Source: Alphaproteobacteria bacterium (GTDB lineage Bacteria > Pseudomonadota > Alphaproteobacteria > Caulobacterales > Aquidulcibacteraceae). Taken from it: a stretch of DNA of 64,000 nucleotides. The stretch spans positions 1-64,000 of the forward strand of contig JAIXQA010000043.1 of NCBI GenBank assembly GCA_027485915.1, given 5' to 3'. The position numbers and the translations under genes are program-made. A model generated the notes under the pieces. The model was not told the origin of the DNA. It saw only the letters and a program-made list of their open reading frames with translations, and did no database searches. Shown here piece by piece: positions 7,091 through 12,810 of this stretch; positions within the stretch are counted from its first letter, which is position 1, and every line of letters begins with the position of its first letter.

Positions 7091-7378
7091 CTACAAATTC
7101 CCAACAACTACGCGGAACGGATGGATGGTGTGGGACTTAAACACGCCGGCGAGCGCATAGGGGTCGTTGGCGGCAAAAGCTTCGACCGCGGCTTGATCGG
7201 CGACATCCAAGATAAAGTGCGAGCCGATCGGCCCACCGTCTGGGGCACTTAGAACAGGGCCAGCCAGTTTCACCGCAGCACCAAAGGTGCCGACATAATC
7301 CAGATGAGCCGGGCGGGTAGCCAAGCGCTGATCTAACGCGCCATCATGATCCAAGCAGGTCAAGAGAAATAAGGTCAT
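7091..7378 (-). CDS. YciI-like protein
   Basis: A 95-residue protein of the YciI/YCII superfamily, a ferredoxin-like fold related to muconolactone isomerase. Visible signatures are RPAHLDYVGTFG near residue 22, with the conserved His of the family, and SHFILDVADQAAVEAFAANDPYALAGVF, in which the DPY/F-AGVF motif is diagnostic. Its ATG overlaps the gpsA stop by one base (TAATG), so it is the second gene of a gpsA-yciI operon, an arrangement common in alphaproteobacteria. The reaction is not known. Confidence 0.82.
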   Translation of the reverse strand: MTLFLLTCLDHDGALDQRLATRPAHLDYVGTFGAAVKLAGPVLSAPDGGPIGSHFILDVADQAAVEAFAANDPYALAGVFKSHTIHPFRVVVGNL

Positions 7379-8370
7379 TAGTCTGCCTCCACCTTGAATG
7401 GCCGCGAAAGTAGTTTGCCAATGGCCTGTGCCACATCCACCTGTCCAGCCAAGATGGCAGCGACGGCTTCACAAATTGGCATGGCCACGCCTTTGCTGGC
7501 GGCAAGTTCTAAGAGGGCTGGGGCAGTTGAGGCCCCTTCGGCGATGCTGCGCTTACCCGCTGTGGCTTCTTGAAAGCTCTGTCCTTGGCCCAAGGCATAG
7601 CCCAGAGCGAAGTTGCGGGAGGTGGCGCTCGAGCAGGTCAAAACCAAATCACCCAAGCCGCAGAGGCCGGCCAACGTGCGCGCGTCGGCTCCCATGGCAA
7701 CGCCAAGCCGGGTCATTTCTGCGAATCCGCGTGTAATCAGCGCGGCGCGTGCACTTTCGCCCAAGCCACGGCCCTCGGCCATGCCACATGCAATCGCCAG
7801 CACATTTTTCACCGCGCCGCCAATTTCAGCCCCGACTAAGTCGGTTGCTAGATAAGGCCTAAAGGTCGCAATGCCGATTAGATCGACCAAGCGCGCACCA
7901 ATCGTCGGGTCGCTACAGGCCAAAGTGACCGCCGTTGGTAAACCAATTGCGACGTCCTTAGCGAAGCTCGGCCCGGATAAAACAGCGCCGACACAGTCCG
8001 GCAACACTTCGGCCAGCACATCGGTCATGAGTTTTTGGCTGCCCTGCTCAATGCCCTTGGAGCATAAAACAACAGGTGTGCCTGCGCGCACATGGGGGGC
8101 GAGTGCACTTAAGGTCTGTCGCATGAATTGGGCTGGCACCACCGCTAAAATGGCATCAGCGGAGGCTAAGTCCGGCAAGTGCCCCGTGGCCCGAATATGA
8201 GGCGACAACTTAACCTGCGGCAAGAACAGGCTATTTTCGCCAGACCTTGCAATGCTGTCCAGAACTTCAGGCTCTAGCGCCCATAGACAGACGTCATGTC
8301 CAGCGGTTGCGGCCACTTGCGCCAAAGCGGTGCCCCAAGCGCCGGCCCCTAGGATGCCAATCTCTGCCAT
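7378..8370 (-). CDS. gpsA: NAD(P)-dependent glycerol-3-phosphate dehydrogenase
   Basis: Reduces dihydroxyacetone phosphate to sn-glycerol-3-phosphate, the backbone of phospholipids. The 330-residue product begins with the nucleotide-binding loop [14 protein letters not shown] and contains [20 protein letters not shown] (the family's GPSFA motif) and the C-terminal catalytic region [16 protein letters not shown] with its conserved Lys. Length is normal. The frame is open 14 codons further upstream, but homologues begin directly at the Rossmann strand, so I set the start at 8370. It is divergent from the TetR gene at 8472 and coupled to the yciI-like gene. The shared 101-base control region holds the TetR operator candidate. 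Confidence 0.93.
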
Positions 8371-8424
8371 TTTGTGCCTGTTTTCCCCGTGTAAATTTGA
8401 CGCAGCCGTCAAGTTTATAAAAAC

Positions 8425-8446
8425 TGAACATTTTGTTGATTGTTCA
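8425..8446 (+). promoter_or_regulatory. Candidate TetR operator (site 1)
   Basis: Inverted repeat TGAACA (8425-8430) / TGTTCA (8441-8446), that is TGAAC-N12-GTTCA, 26 bases before the TetR start codon. A nested repeat TGTTGA/TCAACA overlaps it. TetR-family repressors usually bind palindromes next to their own gene. Identical arms and spacing occur at site 2 (10300-10321). Confidence 0.55.
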
Positions 8447-8471: not shown

Positions 8472-9059
8472 ATGGATGAGAAAGCAGAAACCCGCGATCG
8501 TATCTTGGAAGCCGCAGGTCGGCGGTTCGAGCATTACGGCTATAGCAAAACCACGATGTCGGAGATTGCCTCCGACCTCAAGATGTCGACTGGGAATCTT
8601 TACAGATTCTACCCCTCTAAGCTCGACATTGCTGAGGCCCATGCCCGTGCGCATGAGTGCGACGAGGACGAGATGATGGAGGCTGTCGTGGCCTCTGGCG
8701 GTTCTGCCGGTGTGCGGCTACGGGAATTTCATCGCGTGATCCTTGAGCATACGTTCAAGCTGATCGATGAGAGCAAGAAGATTTTTGAGCTGGCACAAGC
8801 CATCTCCCGCGAACGCCCGGCCTATGCCAATCGTCGCCTAGCCATCGAACGCGTCTATCTGGTCCGTATGCTCGAAGATGGGATGGCTGAAGGCCTGTTT
8901 GAACCGCACGACAATCTGGACGAACTGGCAGAGATGATCCAGTGCGCCACGATGAAGTTTCGCTATCCACAGCTTTATAATTGCTTCCGGATCGACATGC
9001 TCCGTCGGGAACTCGAGGGCACAATGGACCTGATTTATAAAGGTCTCCTCAAGCGCTAA
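8472..9059 (+). CDS. TetR/AcrR family transcriptional regulator
   Basis: A 195-residue one-component regulator. The N-terminal helix-turn-helix reads ETRDRILEAAGRRFEHYG...TTMSEIASDLKMSTGNLYRFYPSK (residues 6-50), a textbook TetR DNA-binding domain. The C-terminal ligand domain is rich in charged helices and resembles the C-terminal part of regulators with DUF-type or YsiA-like domains; the ligand is unknown. I chose the ATG at 8472 because AAGGGG lies just before it; the frame is open 13 codons further up, but those would run through the operator. It is divergent from gpsA. The same palindrome geometry in front of the small ORF at 10389 suggests that this is a second target. Confidence 0.9.
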   Translation: MDEKAETRDRILEAAGRRFEHYGYSKTTMSEIASDLKMSTGNLYRFYPSKLDIAEAHARAHECDEDEMMEAVVASGGSAGVRLREFHRVILEHTFKLIDESKKIFELAQAISRERPAYANRRLAIERVYLVRMLEDGMAEGLFEPHDNLDELAEMIQCATMKFRYPQLYNCFRIDMLRRELEGTMDLIYKGLLKR

Positions 9060-9396
9060 TCCGACCAAGCGAAGTGGAGCGCGGTTGGGTTCCCGGTCAT
9101 CCCGGCACGAGCGCCAGCTAAGAGCGGGGACCCGATGGGACTTTGCGTCAGGAGGTCCCGATTGGCAGCGCCTTAGTATCCTGAGCCATAAGAATAGTCT
9201 GCTTGTGACTGACTGCATTTTAGACAAGTGGTCAGGCAAGTCAGCCAGTGAATATTGTCACTTGAGTCATTCAAACGAGATGCAAACTAATTCCCTGCTG
9301 ACTACAACAACGATAGACCGCAGCTGGCCGTAAGGGGACGGTCTTGTTTGGAGGTTGAGGGGGCTAGATTAGCTGTCTTTAACATTATTAGCCAAA
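9060..9396. other. Gene-free stretch, AT-rich with a repeat remnant
   Basis: No supportable gene. The first part carries the hairpin-forming repeat described at 9087-9133. The remainder is clearly poorer in GC (25 of 60 bases in 9241-9300) than the flanking genes and shows no ribosome binding site/start combination. The one open frame (9085-9333) has a composition unlike local proteins. Confidence 0.6.
9087..9133. repeat. Hairpin-type interspersed repeat remnant
   Basis: GGGTTCCCG (9087-9095) faces CGGGGACCC (9125-9133), with GTCATCCCGGC inside. This is the form of the small GTCATCCCGG...GGGACCC palindromic repeats scattered through many alphaproteobacterial genomes. A more degraded, inverted relative seems to lie at 51380-51420. 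Confidence 0.4.
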
Positions 9397-9864
9397 TCAT
9401 TCTGAGTATGGATTTTCAGCTTGAAGTCCGTTGCTATCCAACCAAATGTCCTCTGAAAGTGCCCTCACACGCACACAAATCCGTTCGTGGTCTGGATATG
9501 TAATTACATCAGTTGCTGCGCGTGTGCCAACTACGAGGTACTTTGCCGCACTATCGGCCCGATTCTCTAGAAAATGTCCTATTGGTGAACCAGCTGGGAA
9601 CGTAGCAGCGTCGCCGGGATTGAGTACGGTTGTTTCACCGCCCTCATGCAAGACTACTTGGCCATCAAGAACATAAATCATCTCGTCTTCATTGAGGTGC
9701 CAATGACTAATCGAAGAGCGCGAGTTTGGCTTAAGAGTTTCAATAAGTGCGCCAAACTGTGTGAGTCCCCCTGGTTCACTAATCCAGCGCGACTCAATTG
9801 CTCCGACATTGGTTTCTCTGTCGCACACCTCTAAAATCATTTTGTCAAATTGGACTGCAGGCAT
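9397..9864 (-). CDS. Cupin domain protein
   Basis: A 155-residue single-domain cupin. Motif 1 is HWHLNEDEMIYVLDGQ (about residues 54-69), giving the two His and one Glu of the metal site, and motif 2 is PGDAATFPAGSPIGHFLEN (about 83-101), with the third His. Small cupins bind metal and act as isomerases, oxygenases or sensors; nothing here narrows the substrate. GGAGAA is placed 7 bases before the ATG. The DNA is lower in GC (28 of 60 bases at 9421-9480) than the neighbouring genes, so it was probably acquired. A short open frame (9865-10059) ends directly before its start codon. Confidence 0.8.
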   Translation of the reverse strand: MPAVQFDKMILEVCDRETNVGAIESRWISEPGGLTQFGALIETLKPNSRSSISHWHLNEDEMIYVLDGQVVLHEGGETTVLNPGDAATFPAGSPIGHFLENRADSAAKYLVVGTRAATDVITYPDHERICVRVRALSEDIWLDSNGLQAENPYSE

Positions 9865-10059
9865 CTAACTTTCTCCTGTTAAGTACTGTTTTGCATGTTG
9901 CTTGACGTGCCCTCTCGCACCACAACGAGTCAACGCCAAGTTTAGGGCGTCCAATGCCCGCTTTCGAGCAATCCGCTCTGCGCGGTACTGTGCATTCCAT
10001 CCATGGAATGCACCAGGGTCAAGCAAGTCTTGAGATCGTCGAAGTGGGGCCTTGGCCAA
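9865..10059 (-). CDS. Uncertain small ORF upstream of the cupin gene
   Basis: An open frame of 64 codons that would start at a TTG (10059) without a visible ribosome binding site and stop (TAG) immediately before the cupin ATG. Its predicted product is basic and Arg/Ala-rich with no recognisable motif. The abutting stop/start would be consistent with coupled translation, but the weak start and atypical composition make a decayed gene fragment equally likely. Confidence 0.22.
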   Translation of the reverse strand: MAKAPLRRSQDLLDPGAFHGWNAQYRAERIARKRALDALNLALTRCGARGHVKQHAKQYLTGES

Positions 10060-10297
10060 ATAACTTAAAACGACTCAATGCGTCGCTTCGCTTGCCTTGA
10101 AGCCATCTGACAATTGTCTCTGCGCAAGATGCGCGCTCCAACTCGAACTAAGCCTTTGCGTAGGCATAGCCTGCAGCAAAGGCTGTCTCAGTGAAAACGA
10201 TAACCAGTACCGCAGTGCCTCAGTTGGTGCAGTCCTGTCGGACCCCACCCTCCAGCCCACCCTCCAAAGCCACCCATTTCCAACCTTTCAAATAATT
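10060..10297. other. Gene-free stretch before the small-ORF unit
   Basis: Two overlapping short open frames cross this region on opposite strands (10075-10260 minus, 10097-10351 plus), but neither has a ribosome binding site or protein-like composition. It may be the decayed remains of an older gene. Nothing else is evident. Confidence 0.5.
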
Positions 10298-10323
10298 AAT
10301 GAACGATATGCAAATTGTTCATT
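10298..10323 (+). promoter_or_regulatory. Candidate TetR operator (site 2)
   Basis: Perfect inverted repeat AATGAAC (10298-10304) / GTTCATT (10317-10323) with a 12-base spacer. It overlaps the first two bases of the -35 box at 10322. The inner arms TGAAC/GTTCA and the spacing are identical to site 1 (8425-8446), so the TetR protein encoded at 8472 is the natural candidate to bind here. Confidence 0.6.
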
Positions 10324-10350
10324 GACAAGCGTGCAGCGTTTCCCTATATA
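10322..10350 (+). promoter_or_regulatory. Consensus-like sigma-70 promoter
   Basis: TTGACA at 10322-10327, an exact 17-base spacer, and TATATA at 10345-10350. This is the best match to a housekeeping promoter seen in the window. Transcription would begin near 10357, about 32 bases before the ATG of the small ORF at 10389. Confidence 0.7.
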
Positions 10351-10388
10351 GACTGTACAAACACAGAAAACAGAAACGGATCCTCCCC

Positions 10389-10502
10389 ATGACCAACACC
10401 AATTCGAACCCACACCTCTGGAGCTTAACTTTGGCCACCTTCCTCGTGCTCTCCATCCTCGCCCCCGTTGGCGAATTGGCTGCCCGGGCTGCAGGCTACT
10501 AA
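10389..10502 (+). CDS. 37-residue putative small membrane protein
   Basis: ATG to TAA, 37 codons: a short polar N terminus rich in Asn/Thr (MTNTNSNPHLW), one hydrophobic stretch of about 20 residues (LTLATFLVLSILAPVG), then a short tail GELAARAAGY. That layout fits a single-span membrane protein. It stands alone between a strong promoter 39 bases upstream and a strong terminator at 10594, with a candidate TetR operator over the promoter. The ribosome binding site is poor (GGAT followed by CCTCCCC), which leaves open that the transcript acts partly as RNA. No family recognised. The codon content (GCC, CTC, GGC) fits the genome. Confidence 0.55.
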   Translation: MTNTNSNPHLWSLTLATFLVLSILAPVGELAARAAGY

Positions 10503-10511
10503 CCCCCTTGA

Positions 10512-10587
10512 TCGGGCTGCAGCCCGACAAATCTCTCAGCAAAACCCGCTTCCAAGCCCCACGTCTCCCCCCCCAAAATCGGACGTG
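10512..10587 (+). ncRNA. Structured 3' region with C8 loop (possible sRNA moiety)
   Basis: After the stop of the small ORF come a 12-base perfect palindrome GGGCTGCAGCCC (10512-10523) and a stem CACGTC (10560-10565) / GACGTG (10582-10587) whose 16-base loop contains eight consecutive C (10567-10574). Exposed C-rich loops that can pair with Shine-Dalgarno sequences are characteristic of many alphaproteobacterial sRNAs. With the terminator that follows, this could be the regulatory end of a dual-function transcript. Confidence 0.4.
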
Positions 10588-10593
10588 CTACTC

Positions 10594-10626
10594 TGCCGCC
10601 AAAGCTCTGTGCTTTGGCGGCATTTT
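10594..10626 (+). terminator. Strong intrinsic terminator
   Basis: Perfect 12-bp stem TGCCGCCAAAGC (10594-10605) / GCTTTGGCGGCA (10611-10622) with a 5-base loop, followed by TTTT. It closes the transcription unit that starts at 10357. Confidence 0.85.
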
Positions 10627-10732
10627 CATGTGTGAAAGGCACGGCATGGTAAGAAATGAGCGACGCTTTTGTGCGATAACGCCTTGAACCGAAGGGCAGA
10701 CGACTTCTACCTGCCAACCGAGAGGCACAATC

Positions 10733-11704
10733 GTGGTCAGCCAGCCCCTAGCAGAGACGCCCGTCATCAGCGTGATTATCCCAACCTTTCACCGTCCAGA
10801 CGGTGCCTTGGCGGCTGTGCGTTCGATCCTAGGCCAAGAAGGCGCGCCATCGCTGGAAATTATTTTGGTCGACAATGACGCCAAACAATCCTGCAAGGCC
10901 GTTGCGGACCAATTGACACAAGAGGCCGGTCAAACGCCTTTCACCTATGCGGTCGAGCCTGCCGCAGGCGTTGCCAATGCGCGCAACAAGGCCGTCAGCC
11001 TAGCCCGAGGGACCTTTGTCGCTTTCTTGGATGATGATGAAGTGGCTAAGCCAAATTGGCTGGCCAATCTGGTCAAGGCGCAACAAGAAACCGGTGCCGA
11101 TGTGGTGTTCGGTCCGATTGAAGCCCGCCTACCCGCTGACCACAACGTACCCCACACCTATTTTCAAAATTTTTTCTCACGCCATCTTGATGGGCCAACA
11201 CGCCTGATTGAGATCCCCTATGGCTGCGGCAATTGCTTTTTGAAGCGCGAAACCGTCTTCACCAAGCCCGAGCCATTCAATCCCGCTGCCAATGAAACCG
11301 GCGGTGAGGACGATATTTTATGGCGTGAAGTGGTGGCAAGCGGCGGGAAGTTCGGCTGGGCGCAGGATGCGTGGGTCTATGAAGACGTACCACCCAGCCG
11401 GGCAACTTGGGCGTATCTGACTAAGCGCGCTTTTGCCTTTGGCCATAATACGACAGGCCAATGGTATAATCGGGCCGACCGAGATTACGTGCGCATGGTG
11501 ATTTCCATGTTCAAAGGCGTGGCGCAGGCGCTCGCCCTCGCCCCTTTGGTCGCGCTTTTGTGGATGACGCGCCACGACCGTCTGGCCTGGGCCTATGACA
11601 AGATGTGGCGCGGCTTGGGCAAAGTCTTCTGGTTCGGACCGTTTCGGGTGGGCTTTTATGGCGCCGCCGCCCAGAAGAAACAGCTTGCCACGCAAAAGGC
11701 CTAA
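10733..11704 (+). CDS. Family 2 glycosyltransferase
   Basis: A 323-residue GT-A-fold transferase that moves a sugar from a nucleotide donor to an unknown acceptor. The N terminus [20 protein letters not shown] is the GT2 nucleotide-binding strand; [14 protein letters not shown] near residues 95-110 supplies the DxD metal motif, and [12 protein letters not shown] near 192 the catalytic acidic region. A hydrophobic segment near the C terminus (about residues 262-283) could anchor it to the membrane. The start is GTG with GAGAGG nearby. It ends in a 4-base convergent overlap with tsaD. No sugar-biosynthesis genes are adjacent. Confidence 0.85.
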
Positions 11705-12810
11705 GCCTTCGCGCCCTTGCGCCCGGTCTTATACATCGGTGCGGCGCGCGCAGCTTCGGCGTCCAAAGGCCAGCGCGGGCGTGCTTGCGCATCTAAATCA
11801 TCGGTTAGCCCTAGGGCTAAGCGCTCTGCCCCGGCTAGCGCGATCATCGCAGCATTATCGCCGCAATAGGCCAAGGCCGGGGCAAAGTAAGTCCAGCCTT
11901 GTTGGTCGCAGAGGGCTTGCAAACGGCTGCGCAGGGCGAGATTTGCGGCCACGCCACCGGCGACAACAAAGCGGCCAGCCTCGCCTGCCTCCAAGCCCAT
12001 CTTATCCATCGCGTGACCGGTGCGATCCACCAACACATCGCCAACAGCGGCCTGAAAACTGGCACCCAGATCAGCAATATCCTGTTCGCTCAACGTCCCC
12101 AAAGCTGCCGCCTCGCGCGCAACAGCGGTTTTGAGGCCAGCGAACGAAAAGTCGCAACCTAAACGCCCTTTAAGTGGCCTAGGCAGATCAAATCTTTTGG
12201 GATCTCCTGCGCGCGCAGACCGCTCGACTGCAGGCCCGCCTGGATAGCCAAGACCCAGAACTTTTGCAGTCTTGTCAAAGGCCTCCCCTACCGCATCATC
12301 AATGGTAGAGCCCAGGCGTTCACACGCATCAAGGCCTGCCACACGCAAAAGCTGACAATGACCACCCGAAACCAAAAGCAATAGATAAGGGAAAGGCACA
12401 TCGGCTTCGAGACGGGGGGAAAGCGCATGGCCCTCGAGGTGATTAACCGCCACCAGCGGCAGGTCTCGGGCGAGGGAAATCGCTTTACCGGTCAATAGGC
12501 CCACCATTACCCCACCAATCAGGCCGGGCCCTGCAGTTGCCGCCACACCGGTTAAATCATCAAATCCAATGCCGGCCTCTGCCAGCGCTTGGAGAATGAT
12601 GCGATCAATCACTTCGACATGGGCGCGCGCTGCAATTTCTGGCACCACGCCGCCATAGGGCGCATGTGCCTCGATCTGACTGGCGATGATGCTGGATAAA
12701 ACGCGCGCTCGACCATCCTGCAAAACCACCACGGCTGCAGCGGTTTCATCGCAACTTGTTTCTAGTCCAAGGACGATTTGTGGATCAGAAGGGGGCATCT
12801 GTCCGCTCAT
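11701..12810 (-). CDS. tsaD: tRNA N6-adenosine threonylcarbamoyltransferase TsaD
   Basis: Transfers the threonylcarbamoyl group to A37 of ANN-decoding tRNAs (t6A), working with TsaB, TsaE and TsaC. The 369-residue product starts [16 protein letters not shown], the ASKHA ATP-binding strand, and carries the metal motif NHLEGH (HxxxH) near residue 117, [22 protein letters not shown]-type residues, and [13 protein letters not shown] near 275. Length is slightly above the usual 340. It is divergent from hemC (50-base gap), a conserved alphaproteobacterial arrangement, and overlaps the upstream glycosyltransferase tail by four bases. Confidence 0.95.

Follow-up and report, generated by a model that had tools for sequence, protein, structure and literature searches.

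Four described systems come closest to the locus analysed here, three of them through the transcript and the fourth, the FadR-type TetR repressors, through the regulator. The CIN1 locus of Rhodobacter sphaeroides combines the DUF1127 protein CcaF1 with the CcsR1-4 RNAs, CcaF1 being a 71-aa RNA-binding DUF1127 protein transcribed from an RpoHI/RpoHII promoter (PMC10253847). The alpha-r14 or cuckoo RNAs, such as NfeR1 (RF02344), have three hairpins with an identical CCUCCUCCC in each loop (PMC10746234), and SisA-D (alpha-R8) of Caulobacter are described as sRNAs in the Hfq interactome with the anti-Shine-Dalgarno core UUUCCUCCCU (PMC12559287). The unit found at positions 10298-10626 of our window (the whole stretch of 64,000 nucleotides that was analysed) is like CIN1, where the gene of a small protein shares its transcript with regulatory RNAs and an intrinsic terminator downstream (PMC10253847), the RNA part being putative here. 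It is like the alpha-r14 RNAs, whose hairpins combine stems that vary with C-rich loops of the anti-Shine-Dalgarno type (PMC10746234).

All transcribed elements of the unit lie on the plus strand. Operator O2 of the micropeptide promoter occupies 10298-10323 (core 10300-10321), where it abuts and slightly overlaps the -35 box; a preliminary description had called it a perfect inverted repeat, and the repeat is present but imperfect, with 11 of 13 positions paired, including all of the outer seven. The promoter, TTGACA-N17-TATATA (10322-10350), has its TTGACA at 10322-10327 and its TATATA at 10345-10350, the spacer being exactly 17 bases as described, and it is conserved in relatives. The leader GGATCCTCCCC (10378-10388) carries a short Shine-Dalgarno-like GGA plus a C-rich stretch set against the ATG, so that the ribosome site, earlier judged poor, is weak yet not absent (GGA 8 bases 5' of the ATG). 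The micropeptide gene follows at 10389-10502 (ATG at 10389, TAA at 10500-10502) and encodes the 37-aa peptide MTNTNSNPHLWSLTLATFLVLSILAPVGELAARAAGY with one hydrophobic stretch of membrane-span length, as judged by Kyte-Doolittle hydropathy only. Downstream are the palindrome CGGGCTGCAGCCCG (10513-10526), a short GGGC/GCCC hairpin that contains GGGCTGCAGCCC, then a C-rich-loop hairpin (10560-10587) with the stem CACGTC/GACGTG and eight C in its loop at 10567-10574, and finally the intrinsic terminator (10594-10626), a perfect 12-bp stem with a run of four T. The promoter, 37-codon frame, palindrome, C-loop hairpin and terminator had all been noted before, and each was recovered as described.

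The RNA of the predicted transcript folds better than 200 of 200 shuffles (z = -3.8). A generic scan of 9000-11500 does not list the promoter of the unit because its rule requires the -10 box to end in T; it found promoters and terminators in no excess over shuffles in that interval, and lists the terminator of the unit as its longest stem. No minus-strand promoter was found within the unit by the sigma-70-type scan of 9000-11500, which also misses the plus-strand promoter. The window has no Rfam match at the gathering score; low-score matches, all to eukaryotic or viral families, were matched by the terminator stem or by chance and were set aside.

The genus of the window's genome, Aquidulcibacter / Ca. 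Phycosocius (order Caulobacterales), is represented by nine genomes including its own. A DNA search with the 333-bp unit matched all of the other eight (8/8) and G013, a genome of another genus; its total of 11 of 61 genomes includes the window's own genome and a 20-base match in G055. Contigs matching the pattern of the operator plus -35 box come from Hyphomonadaceae bacterium UKL13-1, Aquidulcibacter sp., Ca. Phycosocius bacilliformis, Ca. P. spiralis and three MAGs. The window-genus unit is also carried by locus L031 (CAMDDL010000006.1), in a MAG labelled Maricaulis salignorans, a species label that looks doubtful. Across the genus, the alignment retains the operator, both promoter boxes, the leader GGA..CTCYCC-ATG, the start, the stop and the terminator, and many orthologues have AGGA, AAGGA or GGAG at a spacing similar to that of the window's GGA. 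The CTCCCC directly 5' of the ATG (leader 10378-10388) is kept in the genus, in G013 and in three g13 genomes, and reads CTCTCC in P. spiralis. The sequence of the palindrome at 10513-10526 is not conserved; inspection by eye found other short G/C hairpin-like sequences there in several genus genomes.

Within the genus the micropeptides are 49 to 97% identical to that of the window, and their frame is under purifying selection, with a pooled pN/pS of 0.26 (36 pairs) and with 48, 22 and 112 differences from the window at the first, second and third codon positions. This is the pattern of a translated gene, and the conservation strongly supports translation of the micropeptide frame. The C-terminal motif of the peptide recurs in genera g6 and g13, and is absent from G025. 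A profile search of the order gave matches in g13 genomes, two of which were profile members; weak matches at L044, L045 and L046 were not counted because they lie inside longer frames, nor was a second peptide in G025 (L047). This L047 peptide (G025:C8:126908-127018) is of a similar type, and no such operator was seen by eye in the 250 bases upstream. The statement that the peptide has no known family holds for the libraries searched: the window's peptide has no Pfam or NCBIfam match at E 0.01, and none of 11 peptides matched either library above cut-off, one giving a sub-threshold Pfam match to DUF5665 (17.3 of 27 bits).

These results bear directly on the view that the frame is untranslated and the transcript a small RNA. 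The shortness of the frame, the weak GGA ribosome site in the window and the conserved C-rich loop all speak for this, and the preliminary description had thought an RNA role likelier than a peptide. The comparison does not support that preference: the frame is conserved with mostly third-position changes, the start and the C-terminus with its recurrent motif are retained, a hydrophobic one-span peptide follows 84 of 92 equivalent operator site readings (see below), and family f2 shows the C-rich motif no more often than shuffled tails would. We regard an RNA without a peptide as hardly credible.

The candidate regulator is encoded 1.2 kb upstream of the unit. Its gene, tetR (8472-9059, plus strand), specifies a TetR-family repressor of 195 aa with PF00440 and PF17935 above both Pfam cut-offs, in a scan of the product started from an upstream TTG at 8433; PF00440, the N-terminal TetR HTH, scores 43.8 bits against a gathering score of 24. 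An AlphaFold2 model has the two-domain all-helical TetR fold with a mean pLDDT of 90.4. Operator O1, TGAACATTTTGTTGATTGTTCA (8425-8446), stands between tetR and gpsA (NAD-dependent glycerol-3-phosphate dehydrogenase, 7378-8412, minus strand) and shares with O2 the TGAAC-N12-GTTCA architecture, of which the whole window has these two matches and no third. On the far side of the micropeptide are a glycosyltransferase family 2 gene (10733-11704, plus strand), not found in P. spiralis, and tsaD (11701-12810, minus strand). The unit had been thought to sit alone in a lower-GC accessory stretch. GC does fall to about 0.50, but with tetR and the same operator motif nearby, in a mostly conserved neighbourhood, the unit is not alone, and the picture of an isolated accessory element is not supported. 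The spacer between tetR and the peptide (9060-10290) is of low GC in the window and contains a 155-aa cupin gene; the gap between tetR and the peptide after it is about 150 bases in G005 and G006.

In seven of the nine genus genomes tetR adjoins the peptide, usually in the order gpsA - tetR - peptide - glycosyltransferase - tsaD. O1 is identical in 8/9 of these genomes and O2 is present in 9/9 and in G013; a search of ten genomes with a related 22-base pattern found, besides O1 and O2, one recurrent site and four scattered ones. Might the operator then belong to a different regulator, with the TetR gene merely adjacent? In UKL13-1 (G004), tetR lies about 13 kb from the peptide (contig C1, 2713480 and 2727164), and in G001, a genome 94% complete, O2 is kept and tetR was not found at threshold. 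G004 nevertheless retains both operators unchanged despite the separation, and the same motif stands before tetR in 8/9 genus genomes and in 26/28 loci outside the order. The motif before tetR itself is the usual sign of autoregulation, and we consider a different regulator very improbable; the separation in UKL13-1 provides a natural test of control in trans. Overall, the comparison bears out the earlier description of a regulated, self-terminated transcript encoding a small membrane-type peptide under a TetR-type operator, and very probably this DNA holds a genuine gene, its product a one-span membrane peptide of 37 residues and its switch the nearby TetR-type repressor.

We found that the arrangement extends well beyond the genus. 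The TetR gene has matches in 52 of 60 family genomes (E 1e-20) and in 40 of 367 sampled genomes of the class, or 27 of 270 genera (E 1e-35). Within the order, 126 of 398 genomes, from 14 of 59 genera, contain the pattern of O2 plus TTGA; the reversed-pattern control gave zero among the matches listed, and apart from G109 the matching genomes belong to families f1, f2 and f5. We attribute the site variant shared by G109 (family f4) and G250:C17 (L173) to chance, as the L173 site lies inside a long reading frame. Among 92 site readings inspected, a subset of the sites listed that comprises 30 loci returned by searches and 60 fetched regions, 84 precede a hydrophobic peptide that has a single hydrophobic stretch and measures 31-57 residues (median 38); in 80 of the 84 a tetR lies nearby on the same strand within the fetched stretch. 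The rule for calling peptides asked for 25-70 codons, a hydropathy above 1.5 and an ATG or GTG no more than 270 bases away, and took the longest ATG start. It overextends some N-termini, and the shuffle controls are those of a stricter rule. The best-scoring spacer is 17 in 69 of the 84 equivalent promoters. Of the eight remaining readings, three come from a pair of acyl-CoA dehydrogenase loci and three stand ahead of an NAD-dependent epimerase; another falls within an unrelated frame, and the last is the other-strand version of a site already counted. In family f2, loci L180, L187 and L194 have the operator and TTGA just before an NAD-dependent epimerase/reductase gene, and their site variant is also listed for G278 and G310. 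Most of loci L101-L119 have a second, tandem micropeptide about 300-350 bases after the first and without this operator; in the loci read, a GATGTTCGCANNNGCANCATC-like inverted repeat lies 5' of it, perhaps the site of another regulator.

Starting instead from tetR, an operator with at most one mismatch lies upstream in 8/8 loci of the genus, 22/24 of the rest of the family, 8/10 of the other order families and 26/28 outside the order (shuffle mean 0.32, maximum 2), the last being loci from ten families that were returned for 38 class matches and are not independent within a family. Within 600 bases downstream of tetR, the corresponding counts are 5/8, 20/24, 9/10 and 22/28 (shuffle mean 0.46, maximum 3), and the shuffle means for both positions are below 0.5 in every group. 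A micropeptide under the strict rule is found downstream in 3/8, 19/24, 8/10 and 20/28 (shuffle mean 0.74, maximum 3), with shuffle means of 0.12 to 0.74 across groups. The low genus counts (operator 5/8, peptide 3/8) are due to long spacers and to peptides just under the strict hydropathy rule. Since profile comparison detected no homology among the micropeptides of f1, f2 and f5, these are equated by position, size and operator control.

Outside the order, the pattern search gave six matches, and its reversed-pattern control 2 in 385 genomes. Three of the six look real: G765 has tetR, operator and peptide, G401 has operator and peptide with the tetR match on another contig, and G424 has tetR and operator with a long next gene. 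The matches in G410, G508 and G596 look like chance. Agrobacterium TetR genes from a plasmid search are 34-35% identical and were not taken as orthologues. Judged by these patterns, the same predicted repressor-plus-tiny-peptide module is present in many other Alphaproteobacteria, sometimes with a C-rich transcript tail that resembles a regulatory RNA.

A small hydrophobic peptide that occurs in tandem copies in some genera also recalls the toxic peptides of type I toxin-antitoxin systems. Linkage to tetR across the class, purifying selection on the frame and a mostly stable neighbourhood in the genus all argue against a toxin, which we hold to be quite improbable. Ten sampled families outside the order and three within it have a repressor whose operator stands in front of both its own gene and tiny membrane-type genes. 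This spread points to a basic function, one that annotation would have missed because the genes are under 60 codons.

A third operator-type site, TGAACATACTGTATTTTATTCA, recurs in 8/9 genus genomes and suggests a further target. In the seven genus genomes checked (G008 left out), an acyl-CoA dehydrogenase gene begins 130-135 bases beyond the site; at L084:5083-5104 (G000:C41:9082-9103) the site is between this gene and a divergent 102-codon gene. At the same locus a wax-ester synthase/DGAT gene is found two genes on, on the other strand. We searched 32 genomes for orthologues of the acyl-CoA dehydrogenase and found 21 with one, and none in the six f5 genomes searched. An operator-type site falls within 300 bases of the orthologue in 10/21 (shuffle mean 0.21, maximum 2), namely 9/10 in f2, 1/5 in f1 and 0/6 outside the order. 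The divergent gene encodes a small protein, about 100-120 residues long and exported-looking. In all f2 orthologues that carry the site (9/9), the better promoter match spans the operator and points to this small gene. The third target may therefore be the small divergent gene, either in place of the acyl-CoA dehydrogenase or in addition to it.

This position between divergent genes, with the promoter mostly toward the small one, lowers the case for fatty acyl-CoA as the signal of the repressor, and we consider that ligand unlikely. Thermus FadR with lauroyl-CoA ranks 2-3 in a Foldseek search with the TetR model, a likeness within the TetR fold common to both, and Bacillus FadR aligns full length with the TetR profile (3whb, E 1e-8). 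Against the FadR equivalog NF053878 of NCBIfam, the window's TetR scores 18.3 bits, far below the cut-off of 200. QacR superposes on the model with Z 19.1 and an rmsd of 2.1 over 180 residues, and QacR and EthR2 fit as well as or better than FadR; the fold searches (Foldseek and structure comparison) favoured no single ligand, with FadR, EthR2 and QacR fitting alike. The window's TetR also differs from FadR-type TetR repressors in that its recurrent target is a micropeptide.

The C-rich part of the transcript is less uniformly kept than the peptide. The relatives retain both across the genus, the peptide frame in 9/9 genomes and the C-rich hairpin stem in 8/9, the exception being P. spiralis (G006). 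This stem is almost invariant in the genus, so covariation cannot test it there; in G003, G007 and G008 the terminator loop is C-rich as well. Four C-rich motifs were tried per family (CCTCCC, CTCCC, TTCCTCCC and runs of six C). Family f5 has CCTCCC in 19/20 tails, against a shuffle mean of 4.4 and maximum of 10, and none on the complement strand. Among 14 of its tails 17 of 23 base pairs changed on both sides, compared with 6.8 in shuffles and with 6 at most when the pairing partners were slid, in a structure predicted from the same sequences on which the pair changes were counted. These 14 of the 20 tails are L207-L220; L201-L206 were left out, their tails being longer or differently built. 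CTCCC is found in 19/30 tails in f1 (shuffle mean 8.1, maximum 15), where CCTCCC (5/30, mean 3.3) and runs of six C (9/30, mean 4.9, maximum 10) do not exceed shuffle maxima. Neither CCTCCC (9/34; shuffle mean 3.9, maximum 10) nor CTCCC (10/34; mean 10.2) is above shuffles in f2. TTCCTCCC is rare but above shuffles in both f1 (3/30; mean 0.3, maximum 2) and f2 (4/34; mean 0.2, maximum 2), and runs of six C do not pass the shuffle maximum in any family tested. A C-rich, anti-Shine-Dalgarno-like tail is, on these counts, a recurrent but not universal part of the predicted module.

An ordinary TetR-controlled mRNA, in which the C-rich hairpin and the terminator merely protect or end the transcript and the peptide is the only product, is a rival explanation. 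In its favour, conservation of the C-rich motif is narrower than that of the peptide and operator, f2 tails are often a terminator alone or run into the next gene with the motif not above chance, and both CCTCCC and five C are missing from three g13 tails. The two-sided changes and near-constant CCTCCC of the f5 tails argue against it, as does the recurrence of C-rich stretches in different surroundings in G013 and G020. We give this peptide-only explanation somewhat less than an even chance. The preliminary suggestion of an RNA function through the C-rich loop gains from the comparison as a possibility, and we rate RNA activity of the tail as nearly an even prospect.

Taken together, the unit is probably the target gene of the TetR repressor 1.2 kb upstream, with a membrane peptide and a possible C-rich RNA. 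The operator, promoter, TetR linkage and peptide conservation come from comparison, and from them we infer binding, the direction of control, membrane insertion, peptide action, RNA activity and a ligand in the following scheme. The repressor would bind its own promoter at O1 (autoregulation) and, at O2 against the -35 box, would block the micropeptide promoter. Both promoters would be held low until a ligand releases the repressor, the signal possibly being envelope- or lipid-related. Release would yield a transcript that starts near 10357, ends at 10626 and measures about 270 bases; its translation would give the 37-residue peptide, which would sit in the inner membrane. Within the mRNA or cut off from it, the C-rich hairpin with the terminator might serve as a short RNA and pair with Shine-Dalgarno sequences.

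A broader version would make this an Alphaproteobacteria-wide switch, in which one TetR responding to an envelope or lipid signal controls very small envelope proteins (one-span micropeptides, a small exported protein and perhaps the acyl-CoA dehydrogenase), and the micropeptide transcript gives both a membrane peptide and a 3' anti-Shine-Dalgarno RNA. We think it rather unlikely that all of this holds; if it did, membrane and translation would respond together. The operator motif offers a handle for finding such genes and for testing the signal, the peptide and the RNA separately.

Set beside the systems with which we began, the unit differs from CIN1 in its 37-aa hydrophobic peptide without a Pfam match (so no DUF1127), in its TetR-type operator and in having a single C-rich hairpin as opposed to four RNAs. 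Compared with the alpha-r14 RNAs, it has one loop of eight C that reads UCCCCCCCCAAAAUCG, not CCUCCUCCC. The window has no match to RF02344 at the gathering score; the best of nine related loci scanned (L143), the tail of G013, matches the alpha-r14 model over its full length, at 25.8 bits against 58.8 (E 0.25). In relation to SisA-D, the peptide 3' regions of G020 and G032 contain UUUCCUCCCG, with nine of the ten UUUCCUCCCU bases, whereas the 10-mer UUUCCUCCCU is absent from the window's tail, and the C-rich motif here is the tail of a peptide mRNA. By its sequence the tail resembles the CIN1/CcsR, alpha-r14 and Sis RNAs without matching the definition of any of them. We found no description of a TetR-micropeptide module in the literature covered, from which subscription papers and preprints were largely absent. 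Neither TetR autoregulation nor the joining of a small protein to a C-rich RNA is new in kind; what we have not seen in that literature or in the family libraries is that these are combined with one-span micropeptides and that the combination extends beyond the order. Beside the CIN1/CcsR loci, the module may represent an independent case of a small protein joined to a C-rich anti-Shine-Dalgarno RNA.
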